64,000 bases of DNA from positions 1-64,000 of the forward strand of contig CAJQOH010000013.1 of the NCBI GenBank assembly GCA_905479915.1. Direction: 5' to 3'. How positions within the stretch are numbered: the first letter of the stretch is position 1; the number at the start of each line of letters is the position of its first letter. This document shows, in pieces, positions 1,497 through 14,012 of this stretch. Source of the stretch: an uncultured Flavobacteriales bacterium (lineage in GTDB: Bacteria > Bacteroidota > Bacteroidia > Flavobacteriales_E > Vicingaceae). The notes below the pieces were generated by a model. The model was not told the origin of the DNA and did not search any database. It saw only the letters and a program-made list of their open reading frames with translations. The translations under genes were made by a program, and so were the position numbers.

Positions 1497-2220
1497 AAGA
1501 AGAAAGTTTAATCAACTCCTCAACCATCCCCTCAATTGTATGAGGGTTTGCAATAGCTGCAACGGGTAGCTTATTTTCTCTGGCAGTTTTAGCCGTTTCA
1601 GGACCTATGCAAACTATTTTTTCATTTTTAACTTCAATTCCTAGTTTGATAAAAGATTGAATAGTAGAACCACTAGTAAAGGTGATGTAATCAATTTGTT
1701 GGTTGAAGATTTTTGCCAATTCTGTTTCACTATACTCAACTGAATTGTTTGTATAAATAGAAATTGATTTTACTTTACCATTTTTTCCTTCAAGGATTTC
1801 AGCACTATCATTTTTGGCCAAGTTAGATCTCGGTATTAAAATAGTATCGTTTTCAGAAATAGGAAGTTCTTCAGCCAATTGTTTAGCGGTATATTGACTC
1901 GGAATAAAATCTACTTGTAGGCCAATTTGTTCAATTGCTTGTTTTGTTTTTTCTCCTACAACAGCAATTTTAGAATTGATACTGTTGGCGTCAATACTTT
2001 CGAAAAAGAACTGCACAGCATTGGTACTAGTAAAAATAAGCCAATTGTAATGAGTAGATTTTATAGCTGATTTAAGTTTTTCTTGGTTAATTGGTGTAGT
2101 TGTAATTAGGGGTAAAGAAATTGTTTTGGCGCCTAAACTTTCAAGTTGATTGATAAATTTTTCTGCCTGATTTGCAGAACGTGTGATAACAATTGTTTTT
2201 CCTTTAAGTGGTTGCATCAC
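1486..2220 (-). CDS. hemD: Uroporphyrinogen-III synthase
   Basis: 244 aa HemD-like sequence (KTIVITRSANQAEKFINQLESLGA, FTSTNAVQFFFE, FTSGSTIQSF) adjacent to hemA/hemC. Confidence 0.85.
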   Translation of the reverse strand: MMQPLKGKTIVITRSANQAEKFINQLESLGAKTISLPLITTTPINQEKLKSAIKSTHYNWLIFTSTNAVQFFFESIDANSINSKIAVVGEKTKQAIEQIGLQVDFIPSQYTAKQLAEELPISENDTILIPRSNLAKNDSAEILEGKNGKVKSISIYTNNSVEYSETELAKIFNQQIDYITFTSGSTIQSFIKLGIEVKNEKIVCIGPETAKTARENKLPVAAIANPHTIEGMVEELIKLSSSSS

Positions 2221-2226
2221 TTAAAA

Positions 2227-4437
2227 TTATATTTCGGTTTCACTCAGTACCGTAGCTTTTTTTTTACTTTCTATCTTTTCTTTAAGCTGAGCAGCTAAAG
2301 TTCTTGCCAATGTTTTTTTATTGTCTATAGTTCCAGATATATTAGCTCTTTCAAAGTTTTTACCATCCTCAGTAGCATAAACACCTTCAATAGATATTTC
2401 ATTTTCGTTTGCTTGAGCATAAGCTGCTATTGGCATATTGCATCCTCCACCAAGAGCAATTAAAAAAGCTCTTTCCGCATCAGCAGCATTTTTGGTAGGT
2501 TCATGTTTTAATTTTTTAACCAGCTCTAAAATATCGCCAGCTTTATCAATTAATTCAATTCCTAAAATTGCTTGACCAACTGCAGGAAGCATCACATCAG
2601 TTTCAAATATTTCTGTTGCAATATCAAGCATGTTCATTTTTTCTAAACCAGTTGCAGCTAAAACAATAGCATCATAACCTTCGGTTTCCATTTTATGAAT
2701 TCTGCTTTCAACGTTTCCTTGAATAAATTTATATTCTAAATCAGGTCTAACCTGCATTAGTTGGGCGCTTCTTCTTAGGCTTCCTGTTCCTATAACTGCT
2801 CCTTTTGGTAGCTCAGCTAAAGTCTGTCCGTTTTTAGAGATTAAAACATCTCTGGCGTCTCTTCTCGGAGTAACTGGTATAACTCTTAATCCAACAACCT
2901 CTTCAGTTGGGATATCTTTGTAACTGTGGATGGCAATGTCAATTTCTCCAGCCAACATGGCTCTTTGTAAAGCTGAGGTAAAAGCACCTACAACATCAAT
3001 GTTTCCTTCATCACCAGAAGTTCTAATTATTTTGGTTTCAAATTCGTAATCAGGTTGTACTTTTTTCAATTGATCAATAATCCAATTGGTTTGCGTTAAA
3101 GCCAGTTTACTTCCTCTAGTACCAACAATTATTTTTTTCTTAGGAACAAAAATATCTACCCCTTCAACATCTAAAATCTTTTTAGCGGTGTTAATAGGAT
3201 TGTCTTGTTCATGGATGTTTTGAGCAATGTTTTTTATTCCTTCTATAGTAGGGTTGGAGATCTTTCTCAATAAACGATGCGTAAAACGGTCCAATACATC
3301 TTTTGTATGTTCGTCAATGTCTCCCATTTTAGGAAGAAGCCATTTGAGTTCTTCATCCTTAATGTTTTCCATGTTTTTCCAATACGCTTCAATAACCGGG
3401 GCAACTTTTCGATTTCTTAACCAAACCATAAACCAGTCTAGCTCTTCGTTAACTAGTTTTCTAGCCTTTGGAATTTCGTCATATCGTTTTAATAACCCAT
3501 CATACGTTATCTTCTTGATATCATCTAAATCATACAAAGAAATATTAGGGTCATTTTTTAATGAAGGATTGAAATTTCTTGGAACACCAAAATCGATAAA
3601 AAGTTTATGTCCTCCAGATTGTAAAGCAAAACTGGCTCTAGGACATTTGCTTTCTGCCATGGTTTCTTCATGGAGTAAGTTGATTTCTCCTTGAGTTCCG
3701 CCAACAATAATATTGGCTTCAGATAAAGCAGTGTGCATGTTCTCCATATCAACAGCTTCACCTTTCCACTCTGCAGCCATTTCTTTAGCACGGTCGATAT
3801 CGTGGCTGGCAACATAAAGCTTTTTAATTTTTGTTCTATCTAAAACAGTAGTTACCAAGTTGGCCATATTTCCAGTTCCAATAACTAAAAAAGTGGAATC
3901 AGATAACTCGTATTTATGTTTGGTAATTAATTCAAAACCAACCGTTGCTAAAGAGGCTGAAAACTTTCCAATATTTGTTTCTAAACGAACTCGTTTTCCG
4001 GTGTGTAAACTTTGTCTAACTAATTCATCCAATACAGGGCCAATTGTTTTTTGTTCTCTTCCTAAATCTAATCCGTCTCTAATCTGTCCTGTAATTTGGT
4101 GTTCACCAATTGCTTGAGATTCTAAACCTGCAGCAGTAGAAAATAAATTTCTGATGGCTATTTCACTATCGGGTAAAATTGATAAGTATTGTCTGTAGTT
4201 CCCAAATTTATCAAAGTATTCTAAAATTTGGTTGTGACTTTTTCCGTAAGCATAGATGGATAGTCTATTACAAGTAGAAACAATAAAAACTTCTTTATAC
4301 GTTTTTTTTAACTCTTGTAAGGCAGTAATCGTTTGTTCCTTGTTAAGGGCTAATCTTTCCCTAACTGCTATTGGTGCAAATCGATGACTAAGTTCTACTC
4401 CTATTACTTTATCCATACCTATTTTAAAGGATAGCAA
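2227..4437 (-). CDS. hemA-hemC: Fused glutamyl-tRNA reductase / hydroxymethylbilane synthase (HemA-HemC); start may be the internal Met at about 4416
   Basis: N-terminal STCNRLSIYAYG and GEHQITGQIRD of HemA; C-terminal IIVGTRGSKLALTQT and dipyrromethane-cofactor Cys region LGGGCNMPIAAYA of HemC; one 736-aa ORF. Confidence 0.9.
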   Translation of the reverse strand: MLSFKIGMDKVIGVELSHRFAPIAVRERLALNKEQTITALQELKKTYKEVFIVSTCNRLSIYAYGKSHNQILEYFDKFGNYRQYLSILPDSEIAIRNLFSTAAGLESQAIGEHQITGQIRDGLDLGREQKTIGPVLDELVRQSLHTGKRVRLETNIGKFSASLATVGFELITKHKYELSDSTFLVIGTGNMANLVTTVLDRTKIKKLYVASHDIDRAKEMAAEWKGEAVDMENMHTALSEANIIVGGTQGEINLLHEETMAESKCPRASFALQSGGHKLFIDFGVPRNFNPSLKNDPNISLYDLDDIKKITYDGLLKRYDEIPKARKLVNEELDWFMVWLRNRKVAPVIEAYWKNMENIKDEELKWLLPKMGDIDEHTKDVLDRFTHRLLRKISNPTIEGIKNIAQNIHEQDNPINTAKKILDVEGVDIFVPKKKIIVGTRGSKLALTQTNWIIDQLKKVQPDYEFETKIIRTSGDEGNIDVVGAFTSALQRAMLAGEIDIAIHSYKDIPTEEVVGLRVIPVTPRRDARDVLISKNGQTLAELPKGAVIGTGSLRRSAQLMQVRPDLEYKFIQGNVESRIHKMETEGYDAIVLAATGLEKMNMLDIATEIFETDVMLPAVGQAILGIELIDKAGDILELVKKLKHEPTKNAADAERAFLIALGGGCNMPIAAYAQANENEISIEGVYATEDGKNFERANISGTIDNKKTLARTLAAQLKEKIESKKKATVLSETEI

Positions 4438-4862
4438 ATTTACTAAAATTGAGATAAGTTCTATTCGTTTATTTCATAAGAATTATTTGAGTCTTTTATT
4501 CTTGTGAAAAATTTTAGAGAATCTATTTGTAGTATTGGTTGTTTTGAGAAAATAACAGTTCCTTTTTTACGTTTTTGGTAGTGTGAAAAGAGGTTTTAGG
4601 ATATTTTTTAATTAAGTATTTATACCTAGGTAATTGTAAGTGCTTGCACATAGAATATTTTTTGAATTAAGAAAGACATGTTAATAACATTTGTTAAAAA
4701 AAACGCAAACCCTTGTGTTTCAAATTATCTTGCAAGGTGAAACATGTTGAAAAATATAGTAGACGAAATGTGTCATAAAACCGACCAATACGCACTATAA
4801 TTGTACTAAGAATTTTAGCAGTAGAATTCGATTATTAATAAACTAATAAAACCCTTTCAGAA

Positions 4863-7493
4863 ATGGAGAAAACATTAAATCAAGTGAGCGAGTCTGTCGA
4901 AAAAAATGAAGAAAAGTTACAGGCGTCTAATCCTAAAAATGACGAAATCGTGAAAAAATCTTATTCTTTTGATGAAGCTTTAGAAGAAGCTACAAAATAT
5001 TTTAAAGGTGATGAACTTGCAGCTAATGTTTGGATAAATAAATATGCGTTAAAAGATTCTGAAGGGAATATTTATGAGAGTAATCCTGATCAAATGCACC
5101 ATCGTTTGGCAAAAGAAATTGCTCGTATAGAAAACAAATATGATAATCCATATTCTGAAGAGGAAATTTATGAGGTGCTAAAGGGGTTTAAGCACATCGT
5201 TCCACAAGGTGGTCCAATGACGGGTATTGGTAATGATTACCAAATAGGTTCTTTATCTAACTGTTTTGTTATTGGTAATGATGGGAATTCAGACTCTTAT
5301 GGAGGAGTTATGAAAATTGATGAAGAGCAGGTTCAATTAATGAAACGAAGAGGTGGAGTTGGTCATGACTTATCTCACATCAGGCCAAAAGGTAGTGCTG
5401 TTAAAAACAGTGCATTAACTTCTACAGGAGTTGTACCTTTTATGGAAAGATATTCTAATTCAACTAGAGAGGTTGCTCAAGATGGTAGAAGAGGAGCTTT
5501 AATGTTATCTACTTCTATTAAGCATCCAGATGCTGAGCACTTTATTGATGCGAAAATGGATGGTACTAAAGTTACCGGAGCAAATGTTTCTGTAAGAATA
5601 GATCATGATTTTATGAAAGCTGTAAAATCTGGTGCTGATTACAAGCAACAGTATCCAATCAATTCTACTGAGCCTAAATTTACCAATACGGTAAATGCAA
5701 AAAGATTATGGGATAAGATTATACACAATGCATGGAAATCTGCTGAGCCAGGAATTTTATTTTGGGATACAGTAATCGATGAATCAATTCCTGATTGTTA
5801 TGCAGATTTAGGATTTAGAACAGTATCTACAAATCCTTGTGGAGAAATTCCTTTATGTCCTTATGATAGCTGTAGGTTGTTAGCGGTTAATTTATATACT
5901 TATGTAGAAAATCCTTTTACCGAAGGAGCTACATTTAATTATGAAAAATTCAATACACATGTAGGGATGGCTCAACGTATTATGGATGATATCGTTGATT
6001 TAGAAATGGAGAAGGTAAATACGATTATCGCAAAAATCGAAGCAGATCCAGAAACTGAAGAAGTAAAAAGAACAGAATTGAGTCTTTGGAAAAAAATTAA
6101 AACCAAAGCAATAGAAGGAAGAAGAACAGGAGTTGGAATTACAGCAGAAGGAGATATGTTGGCAGCATTAAATTACCAATATGGAACTCCGGAAGCAACT
6201 ACTTTCTCAACAGATATACACAAGAGATTAGCTTTAGCAGCTTACCGTTCTTCAGTAGATATGGCTAGAGATAGAGGTTCTTTCCCTGTTTACGATTCAA
6301 TTCGTGAAGAGAAAAACCCAATGATTAACCGTATTAAAGATGCTGATCCAGCACTTTATAATGATATGGTGAAGTATGGAAGAAGAAACATTGCTTTGTT
6401 AACTATTGCTCCTACTGGAACAACAAGTATGATGACTCAAACTTCTTCTGGAATTGAGCCAGTATTTATGGTTTCATACATGAGAAGAAAAAAAGTAAAC
6501 CCGAATGATCAAAATTCTAGAGTTGATTTTGTTGATGAGGTTGGAGATTCTTGGGAAGAATACAATGTGTTCCACCATAAATTTTTAACATGGTTAGAAG
6601 TAAATGGTTATGATACTGATGAAGTAGCAGCAATGAAAGCTGAAGATTTACAAAAGATCGTAGAAAAATCTCCTTATTATGGAGCTACAGCAAATGATGT
6701 TGATTGGGTAGAAAAAGTAAGATTACAAGGAGCTGTTCAAAAATGGATAGATCATTCAATTAGTGTAACAGTTAATGTTCCTAACGATTGTACAGAAGAG
6801 CTGGTAAGTAAAATATACCAAACTGGATGGGAAGAAGGATGTAAAGGAATTACTGTTTATAGAGATGGTTCAAGAAGTGGAGTATTGGTTTCTAAAGACG
6901 AAAAGAAAGAAGCAGAAAAGGATAAAGTAATCAATGCTTTTTTAGAAACTCAAGCACCAAAAAGACCGGCTAAATTAGAAGCAGAAATTGTAAAGTTTAA
7001 CAACGAAAATGAAAAATGGATTGCTGTAATTGGATTGTTAGATGGTCGCCCTTATGAAATATTTACAGGTGGAGCAGAAGAATCTTTTGCAATCTTATCA
7101 CATGTAGAAAAAGGTTGGGTAATCAAAAGTGAATCTGAGGATGGTAGAGCGCGTTATGACTTCCAATACGAAGATGGTCATGGTTATAAAACAACTATTG
7201 AAGGGTTATCAAGAACCTTTAATAAAGAATACTGGAATTACGCGAAATTAATTTCTGGAGTATTGCGTCATGGAATGCCATTAACGTTTGTGGTGGATAT
7301 GGTAAACAATCTACACTTAAGTGATGAAACATTAAATACTTGGAAAAAAGGTGTTGTACGTTCATTAAAACGTTTTATTCCTGATGGAGCAAAACCATCA
7401 GAAAATGTTTGTCCAAACTGTAGTGAAGCAGCTTTAGTATATGAAGAAGGATGCTTAAACTGTAAGAGTTGTGGACACTCTAAATGTGGTTAA
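4863..7493 (+). CDS. nrdJ: Adenosylcobalamin-dependent (class II) ribonucleoside-diphosphate reductase
   Basis: RNR active-site blocks (SLSNCFVIGN, STNPCGEIPL, APTGTTSMM), TSCPD-like region, C-terminal zinc-ribbon-like CPNC...CKSCGHSKCG. Confidence 0.9.
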   Translation: MEKTLNQVSESVEKNEEKLQASNPKNDEIVKKSYSFDEALEEATKYFKGDELAANVWINKYALKDSEGNIYESNPDQMHHRLAKEIARIENKYDNPYSEEEIYEVLKGFKHIVPQGGPMTGIGNDYQIGSLSNCFVIGNDGNSDSYGGVMKIDEEQVQLMKRRGGVGHDLSHIRPKGSAVKNSALTSTGVVPFMERYSNSTREVAQDGRRGALMLSTSIKHPDAEHFIDAKMDGTKVTGANVSVRIDHDFMKAVKSGADYKQQYPINSTEPKFTNTVNAKRLWDKIIHNAWKSAEPGILFWDTVIDESIPDCYADLGFRTVSTNPCGEIPLCPYDSCRLLAVNLYTYVENPFTEGATFNYEKFNTHVGMAQRIMDDIVDLEMEKVNTIIAKIEADPETEEVKRTELSLWKKIKTKAIEGRRTGVGITAEGDMLAALNYQYGTPEATTFSTDIHKRLALAAYRSSVDMARDRGSFPVYDSIREEKNPMINRIKDADPALYNDMVKYGRRNIALLTIAPTGTTSMMTQTSSGIEPVFMVSYMRRKKVNPNDQNSRVDFVDEVGDSWEEYNVFHHKFLTWLEVNGYDTDEVAAMKAEDLQKIVEKSPYYGATANDVDWVEKVRLQGAVQKWIDHSISVTVNVPNDCTEELVSKIYQTGWEEGCKGITVYRDGSRSGVLVSKDEKKEAEKDKVINAFLETQAPKRPAKLEAEIVKFNNENEKWIAVIGLLDGRPYEIFTGGAEESFAILSHVEKGWVIKSESEDGRARYDFQYEDGHGYKTTIEGLSRTFNKEYWNYAKLISGVLRHGMPLTFVVDMVNNLHLSDETLNTWKKGVVRSLKRFIPDGAKPSENVCPNCSEAALVYEEGCLNCKSCGHSKCG

Positions 7494-7510
7494 GAAAAAA
7501 TAAATGAATA

Positions 7511-7541
7511 AAGGCTCCAATAACTTGGGGCCTTTTTTTTG
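7511..7541 (+). terminator. Rho-independent terminator after nrdJ
   Basis: AAGGCTCC-N8-GGGGCCTT followed by T-run. Confidence 0.75.
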
Positions 7542-7548
7542 GTCTTTA

Positions 7549-8001
7549 TTATAGTGAGGCCATTGTTACTGGACTTCCATGGTAAGAAGATGGTCCCGTA
7601 ATATCTCCTTTAAAAAATAAGGAGTTTTCTTTCGAAAGGAGCTCAATGCTGTACTGATGTGCTTGATCTTTTGCAGTTTTGTTTTGAGGTATTTCTCCAA
7701 TGATCTTATTGTTGTAAGAAACTAGTAAAATTTGGTTTCCTTTAGCAGATGGTATCTTGTTGATTAGTTTGCCATTTTTAAATACAATAACATCTTCACA
7801 AAGTGCATCTTTAGATTCGCAGATCCATTTTACCTGGAGTAAATTTTTATCAATGTATTCATTAGTAGAAACTGTTAATGTGTTTCCATAAACAAAATGC
7901 TGAAAATAAGTAATAGGAGTGTTTCCTTTATTTAGGCTCGGGTGCAATGCGAATATCCCCGAAACAACAATGATTGATAATATGTTTTTAACTAAAGTCA
8001 T
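7549..8001 (-). CDS. Hypothetical secreted/anchored protein
   Basis: 150 aa ORF with N-terminal hydrophobic segment, same strand as the downstream sigma/anti-sigma pair. Confidence 0.6.
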   Translation of the reverse strand: MTLVKNILSIIVVSGIFALHPSLNKGNTPITYFQHFVYGNTLTVSTNEYIDKNLLQVKWICESKDALCEDVIVFKNGKLINKIPSAKGNQILLVSYNNKIIGEIPQNKTAKDQAHQYSIELLSKENSLFFKGDITGPSSYHGSPVTMASL

Positions 8002-8054
8002 TAAATATTGATTGCTCTACTACTAACACGATATAGGTTGCTAAAAGGTTGGAT

Positions 8055-9614
8055 TTACTTTCCTTTTTTTAAGAATATATATTTAACTCCTAGATTAAAC
8101 TCAAGAGAAAAGTTGGTTGATGATTTATATGCATTGTCCTCTTTAGAAGTATTTAGAAGTCCTTGGTTGTATCTTATTCCAGGAGTTATGATAAGTGTTT
8201 TTGAAATGTATCTGTCTTGTTCAATCCCTAATATAATTCCTGCATCCAGTTTACAATAGCTATCTAATTTACGAGATACTCCATTGATATCTGATACTGC
8301 AGATCTTAAATAACTTGCATATACACCACCAATTAAGTTGGTTGAATATACTTTGTTGTCGAATGTAGATTTGTTGTTCATTTTCTTTGCCAATAAGCTA
8401 ACAGATGTATAGTTCATGTTTAAGTTTTCTTGATATGTAACACCTTCACCTTCAAATCCCCTCTTATAACCAGAAGTAGAATTTAAATTTATGTTAGTTT
8501 CAATGTTTAAATTGTCAGAAACAATAAGGCCTACAGTAGCACCTATGTTACTTCCAAAATCAAGTAAACTATTTTGTTTGTATTCAGATAATGGCGAATT
8601 TGATTTTAATGATGTGATCATTCCTTGTTTTTTTAAACCGATATTAAAACCGGCATAAATTCTTCTAGTGTAAACTCCAAACATAGAGTAAGAAGAAAAT
8701 CTTTTGGTGTTGAATACAATTTTATCATTATCCTTTTTAACCAGATATTCACTGCCTCTATACATCTGAGAAATATCTTTTTCAGATAACCTTTTTTTGT
8801 TAATGTTTGTATTGATGCCTCTTTCTGTTTCAGATTTTAATTCATCAAGTTTGTCTTTATAAATAGAACTGTAGTATTGTTGAATTTTTTCTAAAGACGC
8901 ATAATTTACATTTTCTTTACTTCTACTACGTTTTTTTGGAGCAGCAGGGTTGACAGTCTCTTTAGCGTTTTGGATTGCTGTAAATACTTTTTCCTTGTCT
9001 GATTTTTTGTTTTGTTGAGGTGTGTTTAAATTCGATTTGTTTGTGATCTTTGAATTGGAAACAACACTGTTTTTATCAGCTGTAAAGTTTTTGCTTGCTC
9101 CTTTAGAAACATTTTTTTCTGTTGAGTTAACAAATGCTGCTTCGTAAACTGAGTTTTCTTTGTTGGGTTGATTGCTTATTGTTTGTGGTTTGATTTGTGT
9201 TGTGGTATTCTTGTTTACAGAAACAGTAGCGTTGTCAGCTGTTTGGTTATCACTAGTGTTGTAGTTGTTGTACGTTAAATAACTTGCAAAAAATAAAAGA
9301 AAAATTGCAGTACCTCTAATAGCTACATTTCTCCACCATATCAGTTGATCATATCTATTTAAGGAAAGCGCTAATTTATCCCAAACAGAAGCAGTATCTA
9401 ATTGTGTAGCAAGCTTCTCCCAAACGGTGTAATCAGGTCGTTCTTCTAATTTAGAAACCTCTTTTTTGTACCAGTCACTAATAGTTTCATCAGTTAATGG
9501 AGTACTTGCATCTAAATCTCCAGATAAAGAATCCCATAGGTTTGCATCGGGCTCAACATTGTAGTTGTTAAGCTCGTCTCTGTACCAGTCTTCTATGTTG
9601 TCTAAATCTTTCAA
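8055..9614 (-). CDS. Putative anti-sigma-like protein: cytoplasmic tandem W-motif region, single TM helix, linker, C-terminal OM beta-barrel-like domain
   Basis: N-terminal repeats IEDWYRDEL..ANLWDSLSGDLD / ISDWYKKEV..YTVWEKLATQLD / SVWDKLALSLN; TM NVAIRGTAIFLLFFASYL; C-terminal alternating beta-strand pattern; starts 2 nt after the sigma gene. Confidence 0.7.
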   Translation of the reverse strand: MKDLDNIEDWYRDELNNYNVEPDANLWDSLSGDLDASTPLTDETISDWYKKEVSKLEERPDYTVWEKLATQLDTASVWDKLALSLNRYDQLIWWRNVAIRGTAIFLLFFASYLTYNNYNTSDNQTADNATVSVNKNTTTQIKPQTISNQPNKENSVYEAAFVNSTEKNVSKGASKNFTADKNSVVSNSKITNKSNLNTPQQNKKSDKEKVFTAIQNAKETVNPAAPKKRSRSKENVNYASLEKIQQYYSSIYKDKLDELKSETERGINTNINKKRLSEKDISQMYRGSEYLVKKDNDKIVFNTKRFSSYSMFGVYTRRIYAGFNIGLKKQGMITSLKSNSPLSEYKQNSLLDFGSNIGATVGLIVSDNLNIETNINLNSTSGYKRGFEGEGVTYQENLNMNYTSVSLLAKKMNNKSTFDNKVYSTNLIGGVYASYLRSAVSDINGVSRKLDSYCKLDAGIILGIEQDRYISKTLIITPGIRYNQGLLNTSKEDNAYKSSTNFSLEFNLGVKYIFLKKGK

Positions 9615-9616
9615 CC

Positions 9617-10147
9617 TTATCTTATGTAATATTTATTCACTAAATCTCTTAAAACACTTTTTGCTTTTGATAATTGAGATTTTGATGTTCCGACACTAAT
9701 GTTTAGCATGTCGGCAATTTCTTTGTGTTTGTAACCTTCTACAGTGTAAAGGTTAAATATAGTTTTTGCTCCATGAGGAAGCATGTTTATGATATCTGAT
9801 AAATCACTTGATTTTGAAATTTCCGAAGTATCATCAAAACCTCCTGCGAGGTATACTGATTCTTGAAAATCAACATTGGTCATTCGATTTGTTTTCCTGA
9901 AATGATCAATGGCTGTATTTACAATTATTCTTCTAATCCAAGCATTTAAGCTCCAGGCATCATTGTATTTGTCAAACTTTTTAAATACTTTAAAGAAGCC
10001 ATCATGTAAGATGTCCTGAGCCAATGCCCTGTCTTTGGTGTAAGTTAGACAAACGCCAAACATTTTAGAAGCAAACATGTTGTAGAGTGCTTCTTGGTGT
10101 TTTCTGCTGCCTTTATAGCAACCTTCTATGATTTCTTCTAATTCCAA
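9617..10147 (-). CDS. ECF-type RNA polymerase sigma factor
   Basis: Region 2 (LTYTKDRALAQDILHDGFFKVFKKFDKY, WIRRIIVNTAIDHFRK) and region 4 (YTVEGYKHKEIADMLNISVGTSKSQLSKAK). Confidence 0.92.
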   Translation of the reverse strand: MELEEIIEGCYKGSRKHQEALYNMFASKMFGVCLTYTKDRALAQDILHDGFFKVFKKFDKYNDAWSLNAWIRRIIVNTAIDHFRKTNRMTNVDFQESVYLAGGFDDTSEISKSSDLSDIINMLPHGAKTIFNLYTVEGYKHKEIADMLNISVGTSKSQLSKAKSVLRDLVNKYYIR

Positions 10148-10300
10148 GTTGGTGTAAATATTTTGAATATTACGCTAGTAATACGGGTAAACATTAAAAA
10201 AGGTTGTAGCGATATTGAAGATTTGTTTTTGGGAATAAAATTATGTTGAAATGTTGTGAAAAAAAAGGGTTGTATAAAACGTTCAATTTGTCGTTCTTTC

Positions 10301-10308
10301 TAACTTTG
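10301..10308 (+). promoter_or_regulatory. Candidate -7 element TAACTTTG for purL
   Basis: Matches TAnnTTTG, 24 nt upstream of the ATG. Confidence 0.5.
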
Positions 10309-10331
10309 CAACATCAATAAAAAAATATAAA

Positions 10332-13300
10332 ATGATAGTATTCTTTAAGACGAAATCAGAAAAAATTATTGCAGTCCAATTTCAAGTTGAAATGAACGAA
10401 AGTGATTTGCCAAAACTGAATTGGTTGTTGGCTGGGGAGCGATTAAATGATTCAGAATTATCTGGATTTTTTATTGGCCCGAGAGCAGCTATGGTTTCTC
10501 CTTGGAGTACCAATGCAGTTGAGATTACTCAGAATATGGCAATCGATAATATTGTTAGAATTGAAGAGTATATCATTGCAGAATCTAAAGATGTTGCTTA
10601 CGATCCAATGTTAGCAAATATGTTTACTTCATTGACTCAAACTTTGTTTGATGTTGATATTAAACCAGAAAGTATTATTTCGGTTGATGATATTGCTGCT
10701 TATAATAAGGCAGAAGGTTTGGCTTTAAGTGATGAGGAAGTAACTTATCTAGAAAATGTTTCTCAGCGTGTAGGTAGAAAATTAACGGATAGCGAAGTGT
10801 TTGGTTTTTCTCAAGTAAACTCAGAACACTGTCGTCATAAAATATTTAACGGGAAATTTATTATTGATGGAGAAGAAAAACCTTCTTCATTATTTAATTT
10901 AATTCGTAAAACATCAAAAGAAAATCCAAATACAATAGTATCTGCATATAAAGATAATGTTAGTTTTGTTGAGGGCCCAAAAGCAATGCAGTTTGCTCCA
11001 GAGACTCAAAATAAAGCAGATTTTTTCGAAACAAAAGAGATTGATACAGTACTTTCTTTAAAGGCTGAAACGCATAATTTCCCTACTACAGTTGAGCCTT
11101 TTAATGGTGCAGCAACTGGTGCAGGTGGAGAAATTAGAGATAGAATGGCTGGAGGACAAGGTTCTGTACCAATGGCAGGAACAGCAGTTTATATGACTGC
11201 TTATTCTCGATTAGAGAAAGATAGAAATTGGGAAAACGGTTTGGCTGAAAGAGATTGGTTGTATCAAACCCCAATGGATATATTAATTAAGGCTTCTGAC
11301 GGAGCTTCAGATTTTGGAAATAAATTTGGACAACCATTAATTAATGGATCAGTTTTAACTTTTGAGCATACCGAAGAAGGAAAAAAGTTCGGTTTCGATA
11401 AGGTAATAATGCAAGCCGGAGGAATTGGATATGGAAAACACCAAGATGCATTAAAACACGTCCCTGAAAAAGGAGATAAAATTGTTGTTTTAGGTGGTGA
11501 TAATTATCGAATTGGAATGGGAGGAAGTTCTGTTTCTTCTGTTGCAACAGGTGAATTTAATAGTGCAATTGAATTGAATGCTATTCAACGATCAAATCCA
11601 GAAATGCAAAAAAGAGCATGTAATGCAGTTAGGGCTTTTGTAGAATCAACTAACAATCCGATAGTTTCTATTCATGACCATGGTGCTGGTGGGCATTTAA
11701 ATTGTCTTTCTGAATTGGTTGAAGAAGTTGGAGGAACTATTAACTTAAGAAGTTTGCCCGTAGGAGATCCAACTTTATCTGCTAAAGAAATTGTTGGTAA
11801 CGAATCTCAAGAAAGAATGGGATTAGTTATTAAGCAAGAAGACGTTGCTCTATTACAAGAGATTTGTGAAAGAGAAAGATCACCAATGTATGTGGTTGGA
11901 GACATTACAATGGATCATAATTTTAAATTTGAAGATGAAGAAACGGGCGAAGATCCAATTGATCTTCAAATTGAAGATATGTTTGGAAGTCCTCCAAAAT
12001 CAGTAATTACTGATACTACTTTAAATACAAAGTTTGAAGCTGTAGCTTATGAAAGCAATCAAATTGAAAGCTACTTAAAACAAGTGTTACAGTTAGAAGC
12101 TGTTGCTTGTAAAGATTGGTTAACCAATAAAGTTGATAGATCGGTAACAGGTAAAATTGCCAAACAACAAACAACTGGAGAAATTCAATTGCCATTGAAC
12201 AATGTGGGGGTTGTAGCATTAGATTTTAAAGGTAAATCAGGAATTGCTACAGCTTTAGGTCATGCTCCAGTAAATGGTTTAATTAATCCGAAACACGGAA
12301 GTAAAATGGCTATTGCAGAAGCATTAACAAACATTGTTTGGGCACCTTTTAAAGAAGGGTTGAAATCTGTTTCATTAAGTGCTAACTGGATGTGGCCTTG
12401 TAAAAATGAAGGAGAAGATGCTCGTTTATATGAAGCTGTTGAGGCCGTAAGTGATTTTGCGTGTAACCTAGGGATTAACATTCCTACAGGAAAGGATTCT
12501 CTTTCTATGGTACAGAAATATAAAGATGATGCAGTTTATGCTCCAGGAACAGTAATTATTTCTGCTTCTGGAGAAGTTTCCGATGTTAAAAAAGTAGTAG
12601 AACCTACTTTAGTTGATGCTGATAATTCTTCATTAATACTAGTAGATTTTTCTAAAGGAAAATTTGAATTGGGGGGATCTTCTCTAGCTCAGGTTTTAAA
12701 TAAGATTGGAGATTCTAGCCCTACAGTTCATGATGACGATTATTTTGCAAGAGCCTTTAATACGGTTCAGAAATTAATTAACGATGGACATGTGTTGGCA
12801 GGACATGATATTTCTTCAGGTGGTTTAATTACTACATTGTTAGAAATGAATTTTGCAAACTCAACGGGTGGAGTAGATGTTAATTTTTCTTCTGTAGAAG
12901 AGAAAGATTTAACGAAGATTTTATTTAGTGAAATTGCAGCTGTTGTTCTTCAAGTTTCTGATAGTAGTACTGTTGTATCTGAATTTGGTAAAAATGGAAT
13001 TCATGCACATATCATAGGAACAACTTCTAGTGATAGAGCAATTAACATTAAACATCATGGTGCAGAATTGAATTTTGATATTGATGAGATGAGAGATGTT
13101 TGGTATAAAACATCTTACTTGTTAGATCAAAAACAATCTACAGAACAATTGGCAACAGAGCGTTTTGAGACTTATAAAAAGACAATCTTAGCGTATAAAT
13201 TTCCAGAGAACTTTACTGGGAAACTTTCGGACTATGCTGTTGAACATGGTAGGAAAAATAAAACAGGAATTAAAGCAGCAATCATTCGAGAGAAAGGAGT

Positions 13301-14012
13301 TAATGGTGATAGAGAAATGGCTTACTCTTTATTCTTAGCGGGATTTGATGTGAAAGATGTTCATATGACTGATTTAATTTCAGGTAGAGAAGATTTAAGT
13401 GATGTAAATATGATTGTTTATGTTGGTGGATTCTCTAACTCTGATGTGTTGGGTTCTGCCAAAGGTTGGGCTGGAGCATTCTTGTACAATCTAAAAGCAA
13501 AACAAGCTTTAGATAATTTTTATGCAAGACCAGATACTTTAAGTTTAGGAGTTTGTAATGGCTGTCAGTTAATGATGGAGCTAGGTTTAATCGAATCTAA
13601 AGGCGCAACACAACCTATGCATCACAATGCTTCTGGTAAATTTGAGTCAGGTTACTTAAATGTAGAAATTCCGGAGAATAATTCTGTGATGTTAAATTCA
13701 TTAGCAGGAAGTAAATTAGGTATTTGGGTAGCTCATGGTGAAGGTCGTTTCTTGTTTGAAGGAGCAGAAGAAGATTACAACATTTCAATGAAATACTCTT
13801 CTAACCATTATCCAGCGAATCCAAACAAGTCTGAATTTAATACTGCCGGTATTTGTTCTGATGATGGACGTCATTTAGCAATGATGCCCCATTTAGAAAG
13901 AATTATTTTCCCTTGGCAAGCAGGTCATTATCCAGTAGATAAAAAACAAGATGAAGTTACACCTTGGTTTGAGGCTTTTGTTAACGCAAAGAAGTGGGTG
14001 GAGAACAATTGA
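10332..14012 (+). CDS. purL: Phosphoribosylformylglycinamidine synthase, single-chain
   Basis: 1226 aa; LKAETHNFPTTVEPFNGAATGAGGEIRD, GVCNGCQLMMELG glutaminase nucleophile, MPHLERI. Confidence 0.97.
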   Translation: MIVFFKTKSEKIIAVQFQVEMNESDLPKLNWLLAGERLNDSELSGFFIGPRAAMVSPWSTNAVEITQNMAIDNIVRIEEYIIAESKDVAYDPMLANMFTSLTQTLFDVDIKPESIISVDDIAAYNKAEGLALSDEEVTYLENVSQRVGRKLTDSEVFGFSQVNSEHCRHKIFNGKFIIDGEEKPSSLFNLIRKTSKENPNTIVSAYKDNVSFVEGPKAMQFAPETQNKADFFETKEIDTVLSLKAETHNFPTTVEPFNGAATGAGGEIRDRMAGGQGSVPMAGTAVYMTAYSRLEKDRNWENGLAERDWLYQTPMDILIKASDGASDFGNKFGQPLINGSVLTFEHTEEGKKFGFDKVIMQAGGIGYGKHQDALKHVPEKGDKIVVLGGDNYRIGMGGSSVSSVATGEFNSAIELNAIQRSNPEMQKRACNAVRAFVESTNNPIVSIHDHGAGGHLNCLSELVEEVGGTINLRSLPVGDPTLSAKEIVGNESQERMGLVIKQEDVALLQEICERERSPMYVVGDITMDHNFKFEDEETGEDPIDLQIEDMFGSPPKSVITDTTLNTKFEAVAYESNQIESYLKQVLQLEAVACKDWLTNKVDRSVTGKIAKQQTTGEIQLPLNNVGVVALDFKGKSGIATALGHAPVNGLINPKHGSKMAIAEALTNIVWAPFKEGLKSVSLSANWMWPCKNEGEDARLYEAVEAVSDFACNLGINIPTGKDSLSMVQKYKDDAVYAPGTVIISASGEVSDVKKVVEPTLVDADNSSLILVDFSKGKFELGGSSLAQVLNKIGDSSPTVHDDDYFARAFNTVQKLINDGHVLAGHDISSGGLITTLLEMNFANSTGGVDVNFSSVEEKDLTKILFSEIAAVVLQVSDSSTVVSEFGKNGIHAHIIGTTSSDRAINIKHHGAELNFDIDEMRDVWYKTSYLLDQKQSTEQLATERFETYKKTILAYKFPENFTGKLSDYAVEHGRKNKTGIKAAIIREKGVNGDREMAYSLFLAGFDVKDVHMTDLISGREDLSDVNMIVYVGGFSNSDVLGSAKGWAGAFLYNLKAKQALDNFYARPDTLSLGVCNGCQLMMELGLIESKGATQPMHHNASGKFESGYLNVEIPENNSVMLNSLAGSKLGIWVAHGEGRFLFEGAEEDYNISMKYSSNHYPANPNKSEFNTAGICSDDGRHLAMMPHLERIIFPWQAGHYPVDKKQDEVTPWFEAFVNAKKWVENN

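Follow-up and report, generated by a model that had tools for sequence, protein, structure and literature searches.

Dma proteins of B. thetaiotaomicron, encoded beside ECF21 sigma factors, consist of one chain that leads from an N-terminal anti-sigma domain through a transmembrane (TM) helix and a disordered tether to a C-terminal barrel (PMC13088901). Vesicle output is reported to increase, via Das1 or Das2, upon losing Dma1 or Dma2 (PMC13088901, citing for Dma1 its reference 16, PNAS 2024 e2321910121). Members of the family differ strongly among themselves, and sequence homology of the anti-sigma factors is not a published defining feature. Like the locus described here, the pairs M0N98_03760/03761 of P. 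vulgatus and EcfO of B. fragilis consist of an ECF sigma factor and a large anti-sigma factor predicted to span the periplasm and to end in a barrel; they respond to envelope damage, with regulons that reach LPS O-antigen and NigD genes (PMC9308784). In P. vulgatus, loss of the anti-sigma factor results in longer O-antigen (PMC9308784).

FecR/TonB-dependent signalling also conveys an outer-membrane signal to an ECF sigma factor, although it needs a separate receptor and FecR, whereas the single chain studied here would serve as both. In E. coli, the RseA/DegS control of sigma E transmits the assembly state of outer-membrane proteins to an ECF sigma factor through an inner-membrane anti-sigma factor, a logic like the one proposed below for our locus; its barrel proteins are molecules of their own, whereas in our locus the barrel is fused to the anti-sigma candidate.

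The locus analysed here shares with Dma1/Das1 and Dma2/Das2 the same order of parts beside an ECF sigma gene, and is a new, more distant member of the Dma family rather than a new kind of system, the kind having been known since 2022-2024. It lies in a 64,000-nt stretch of DNA (the window) on one contig, C13, of a Flavobacteriales genome of 3.57 Mb in 74 contigs. Most of the named relatives closest to this lineage are marine MAGs, and they include Vicingaceae and Vicingus serpentipes. The earlier note had placed a 519-aa ORF directly after a sigma gene, and this was borne out, the ORF starting after a gap of 2 nt from the sigma stop codon. A third ORF, of 150 aa, follows on the same strand, and the three-gene set is flanked by purL (10332-14012, +) and a ribonucleotide reductase gene (4863-7493, +) (Table 1). 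No terminator was found in the 53-nt gap between the 519-aa and the 150-aa ORFs, and an Rfam search of positions 7000-10700 returned no element. Searches with Pfam and NCBIfam gave no match to a FecR domain at the locus, and there was no large ORF for a TonB-dependent receptor nearby. The best explanation of this arrangement is a single autoregulated operon for a sigma factor, a Dma-type anti-sigma factor and a small, probably exported partner.

Table 1. Features of the operon, with positions in the window and, where applicable, residues of the 519-aa protein.
Feature	Position	Strand	Basis
ECF sigma gene, 176 aa, Das-like	9617-10147	-	Sigma70_r2, Sigma70_r4_2; clade with Das1/Das2-like sigmas; TTG start
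Dma-type trans-envelope anti-sigma candidate, 519 aa	8055-9614	-	ORF; AlphaFold2; directly after sigma gene in 22 genomes
W-module 1, residues 6-36	9507-9599	-	Tandem repeat test; predicted helices 7-16, 26-34
W-module 2, residues 44-74	9393-9485	-	Tandem repeat test; predicted helices 45-56, 62-71
Half module around W78, residues 76-87	9354-9389	-	V77, W78, L81, L85 invariant in alignment A1
Transmembrane helix, residues about 97-119	9258-9326	-	Hydropathy; predicted helix 74-119
Disordered polar tether, residues 120-315	8670-9257	-	pLDDT mostly <50; unconserved
Eight-stranded outer-membrane-type barrel, residues 318-514	8073-8663	-	AlphaFold2 blocks mostly pLDDT >90; Foldseek OmpA, OmpW
Third gene of the operon, 150 aa; compact beta fold preceded by a hydrophobic N-terminal helix	7549-8001	-	22/22 family genomes; model pLDDT 87.6
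Putative ECF-type autoregulatory promoter, CAACCTTT-N13-CGTA (AACC-N16-CGT)	10182-10206	-	21/21 relatives, invariant spacer
Terminator-like hairpin 3' of third gene	7510-7535	listed on +	Palindrome also closes minus-strand operon, T-tail weaker there

The sigma protein matched Sigma70_r2 (E 2.5e-13) and Sigma70_r4_2 (E 6.4e-13). In the sigma phylogeny it fell, together with Das1/Das2-like and other Dma-linked sigmas, into one group with support of 97/96 and weak inner branching, which stood apart from most other ECF sigma factors of the same genome. Our Bacteroidales comparison set comprised genomes with NigD genes, from which loci were picked as the best matches of the focal sigma profile; these matches adjoin either NigD or DUF4943 and DUF4858 genes, neighbours characteristic of the dma1 regulon and the dma2 locus as published. 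Downstream of these Das1/Das2-like sigmas are proteins of 351-439 aa in which one tryptophan-containing module (W-module) is followed by a TM helix, a linker and a barrel of the OMP_b-brl type (OMP_b-brl_2).

As a separate observation, the start codon of the sigma gene seemingly is never ATG: of 21 relatives, 20 use TTG and one uses GTG, and most of these genes have no alternative in-frame start upstream. A conserved weak start codon could keep sigma output low.

The anatomy of the 519-aa protein was confirmed as the earlier note had described it, with two to three copies of a W motif, a single TM helix and a polar linker of about 200 residues. Residues 7-36 and 45-74 share 11 of 30 identities at an offset of 38 (BLOSUM62 score 71), a score that never arose when the second copy was shuffled 50000 times or residues 1-92 were shuffled 5000 times; the W-modules are thus a true tandem repeat with a period of 38 residues, made of two complete copies and the half copy around W78. 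The AlphaFold2 model, built on a 26-member alignment, contains four short N-terminal helices of moderate confidence (pLDDT about 50-75). The TM segment, at about residues 97-115 by hydropathy and contained in a long predicted helix (74-119), has a modest Kyte-Doolittle value of 1.51, compared with 1.3-2.0 in most relatives and less than 1.3 in a few, and its position is conserved among them. The tether that follows (196 aa, 71% polar) is modelled as disordered over residues 118-315; it varies between 122 and 209 residues across relatives and shows nearly no sequence conservation, in contrast to the highly conserved modules and barrel.

Pfam and NCBIfam searches found no recognisable anti-sigma domain in the 519-aa protein, which sets it apart from the zinc-finger and RseA class I anti-sigma factors. 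This would also be expected if its N-terminus had another role and the product were an outer-membrane protein, unusually anchored in the inner membrane, with no link to the sigma factor beyond the common operon. Against this, the W-module is the only cytoplasmic part common to the barrel-tailed proteins and the T9SS-tailed proteins (see below) encoded behind sigmas of this clade. Furthermore, loss of the analogous anti-sigma gene switches on the sigma regulon in Bacteroides (PMC13088901) and Phocaeicola (PMC9308784). We consequently regard a role unrelated to the sigma factor as very unlikely.

Beyond the tether, AlphaFold2 produced a confident eight-stranded barrel with long strands of 12-22 residues each. 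Foldseek comparison with the PDB returned outer-membrane proteins as the best 50 matches, with OmpA at the top (E 6e-10; TM-score 0.70 when normalised to the target length) and OmpW and Ail next. The earlier note had proposed a beta-rich, barrel-like domain ending in KYIF; the model upholds the barrel, but KYIF is not the bare end of the chain, since the C-terminus (...NLGVKYIFLKKGK) reads NLGVKYIF and then continues for five residues, LKKGK. The same note had named a soluble periplasmic C-terminal domain as the outcome speaking against its proposal, and the predicted structure is instead of the outer-membrane type. A soluble, lipocalin-like periplasmic barrel would make the protein a conventional anti-sigma factor of the inner membrane that senses in the periplasm, and the lack of a Pfam outer-membrane family match for the focal barrel itself is in line with it. 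Lipocalins, however, were absent from the best 50 PDB matches, the strands are long, and OMP_b-brl_2, though matched by only 4 of the 26 aligned relatives, occurs at the same place in relatives from other families, making a soluble domain highly improbable. An outer-membrane barrel is therefore the best reading of the modelled C-terminal domain, and we consider it quite probable that the pair consists of a sigma factor and a Dma-type anti-sigma factor spanning both membranes. If this topology is true, one molecule could couple transcription directly to conditions at the cell surface.

The focal protein looks like Dma by every anatomical feature tested, and both it and the Dma-type relatives contain the module P-x(3,4)-W-x2-[LIV]-x3-L. 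An hhalign comparison between the focal anti-sigma family and the Bacteroidales dma1/dma2-type set was not significant (probability 6.7%). The sigma factor and the N-terminal module probably share their ancestry with those of the Dma loci, and the barrel may do so. The focal clade differs from the Bacteroidales Dma loci examined in having two tandem W-modules instead of one, an arrangement also found in relatives from other families (L120, L125, L126 and L127). It differs from the Dma1 and Dma2 loci as well in its host, a marine Flavobacteriales, and in its third gene, which has no detectable sequence relation to NigD or DUF4943. The new elements of the focal system are the duplicated module, the third gene accompanying the pair in 22/22 genomes and the promoter conserved in 21/21.

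The third gene was found in 22 of 46 family genomes, belonging to three genera, and in all 22 the order was sigma, anti-sigma and third gene on one strand, a count that includes G008, in which the anti-sigma frame is interrupted, and G001, in which the sigma gene reaches the contig edge. The association of the downstream gene with the pair, suggested at the outset from the focal sequence, consequently holds in every family genome having that gene. The operon is flanked by purL and the ribonucleotide reductase gene in two genera and by other housekeeping genes in the third; because the flanks differ between genera, the three genes stay together in two settings. A congener, G005 (98% complete), contains neither the anti-sigma nor the third gene. 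Among 296 genomes sampled across the class, several other families had relatives of the anti-sigma protein, which adjoined an ECF sigma gene in the loci read; strong matches to the third gene were confined to the five operon-bearing members of the family in this sample. The Dma design, so far studied in gut Bacteroides, thus occurs in many Bacteroidota families, and the focal locus offers a defined test case outside the gut, with a sigma factor, an anti-sigma factor, one partner gene and one predicted promoter.

In the model of the 150-aa protein, a hydrophobic helix at the N-terminus leads into a compact beta fold. It did not match any sequence in database searches, Pfam and NCBIfam among them. 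Transthyretin was its best PDB match, but with an E value of 0.07, which is not meaningful, and was discarded. The protein has no lipobox, and a stretch, LHPSLN, is conserved directly behind the hydrophobic part. It is probably exported, and may be anchored rather than released.

Upstream of the sigma gene, 29-38 nt from its start codon, all 21 relatives contain AACC-N16-CGT with an invariant spacer, a pattern present in 81 of 42000 shuffled upstream sequences; the focal copy is the only such site within the window. This putative ECF-type promoter suggests self-activation of the operon. Genome-wide searches with AACCNTT-N12-14-CGTATT (7 genomes) and CAACCWTT-N12-14-CGTM (6 genomes) gave counts that hardly differed from the control with reversed patterns and did not reveal a wider regulon, and with the strict pattern the operon site alone was common to all seven genomes. 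Unlike the P. vulgatus and B. fragilis sigmas, the focal sigma has no established target beyond its own operon. A site before a GNVR (Wzz/Wzc-like) gene in four genomes was rejected, as it lies inside an opposite-strand exosortase-like gene and tracks its codons.

Two sister sigmas of the same clade and genome, on contigs C17 and C2, are preceded by CAACC boxes with different -10 elements. We also observed CAACC[AT]TT-N13-CGT located 54-59 nt upstream of a 131-aa gene without Pfam match (G000:C28:45798-46250; L261, L277; orthologues L273-L281), the site being conserved in 8 congeners, those where it was readable. This gene is a candidate target of the focal sigma or of a sister sigma, and was left unassigned to the focal sigma because the C17 and C2 sigmas have similar CAACC boxes.

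In the mechanism that we propose, the W-modules would clamp the sigma factor at the inner membrane, with the barrel folded in the outer membrane. Misassembly of the barrel, outer-membrane damage or a surface ligand would expose or pull the tether, and the anti-sigma protein would then be cleaved or reshaped, freeing the sigma factor. The freed sigma would transcribe from AACC-N16-CGT promoters, chiefly that of its own operon, raising the levels of the sigma factor, of the anti-sigma factor, as negative feedback, and of the third protein.

As to the nature of the signal, we tentatively favour a sensor of outer-membrane condition or barrel assembly, because the barrel is conserved, there are no ligand-use genes nearby, and the toxin BcpT, which raises the sigma gene of the P. 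vulgatus pair 33-fold, also induces in Phocaeicola many of the genes that a BamA inhibitor induces (PMC9308784). With the same protein and topology, the barrel could be a specific receptor, whose loops would bind a ligand, either a glycan or the third protein, and signal via the tether. The authors of the Dma2 work propose an unknown glycan as the barrel ligand and saw effects on PULs (PMC13088901), and the third gene, always accompanying the pair, could provide a ligand or an antagonist. Nevertheless, the neighbours of the operon are purL, ribonucleotide reductase or housekeeping genes instead of nutrient-use genes, and the Phocaeicola pair reacts to envelope damage (PMC9308784), so a dedicated ligand appears somewhat less likely, though a serious alternative, and outer-membrane condition or barrel assembly is retained as the favoured signal.

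The focal genome contains two further loci, L097 (G000:C17:43500-48000; 2084-3349, +) and L099 (G000:C2:8000-12700; 1972-3081, -), encoding proteins with a W-module, a TM segment, a linker, a PKD domain and CHU_C, the sorting domain for type IX secretion (T9SS; E 3.7e-10 and 6e-15, respectively), without a barrel. Their paired sigmas branch inside the focal sigma group, and NCBIfam TIGR04131 scored 32-33 bits on both proteins, just below the cut-off of 35. From their domain composition, both are candidates for inner-membrane-anchored anti-sigma factors with a T9SS address. A search of largely open-access papers retrieved no report of an anti-sigma factor with a PKD/CHU_C tail, and these proteins may be more novel than the barrel-tailed focal protein. 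By bearing a T9SS signal while held in the inner membrane, such a protein could sense type IX secretion directly. We also put forward, as a conjecture that we consider somewhat unlikely, that trans-envelope anti-sigma factors are modular, with one cytoplasmic W-module, duplicated in some lineages, tethered to the outer membrane via either a BAM-assembled barrel or a T9SS PKD-CHU_C tail and failed delivery acting as the signal. Were it true, the cell would sense each assembly route by the delivery of its own anti-sigma factor. The T9SS-tailed sisters would make it testable, for a second export route, how a protein held in the inner membrane brings its C-terminus to the outer membrane and what frees the sigma factor, questions that concern the whole family. 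L127, from another family, may be a third T9SS-tailed anti-sigma factor (E 3e-5).

Other loci presented variations in architecture. In L187 (G055:C13:5500-10000, Bacteroidales), the sigma ORF (922-1608, +; 228 aa) continues into a TM segment and is overlapped, in another frame, by a barrel-like ORF (1605-2414, +); the locus resembles a split version of Dma3, whose single chain comprises both sigma and anti-sigma. In L109 (G000:C29:31500-36000), a 604-aa ORF (2688-4499, +) with a TM segment and a GldK/GldJ-like FGE-sulfatase domain lies behind a sigma-like gene split over two ORFs, and is possibly another anti-sigma factor with an unusual periplasmic part. Finally, two relatives, L119 (301-996, +) and L122 (499-1197, +), contain, directly upstream of the sigma gene, a putative lipoprotein of about 231 aa without Pfam match; small exported proteins recur at Dma-type loci, their sequences being unrelated.
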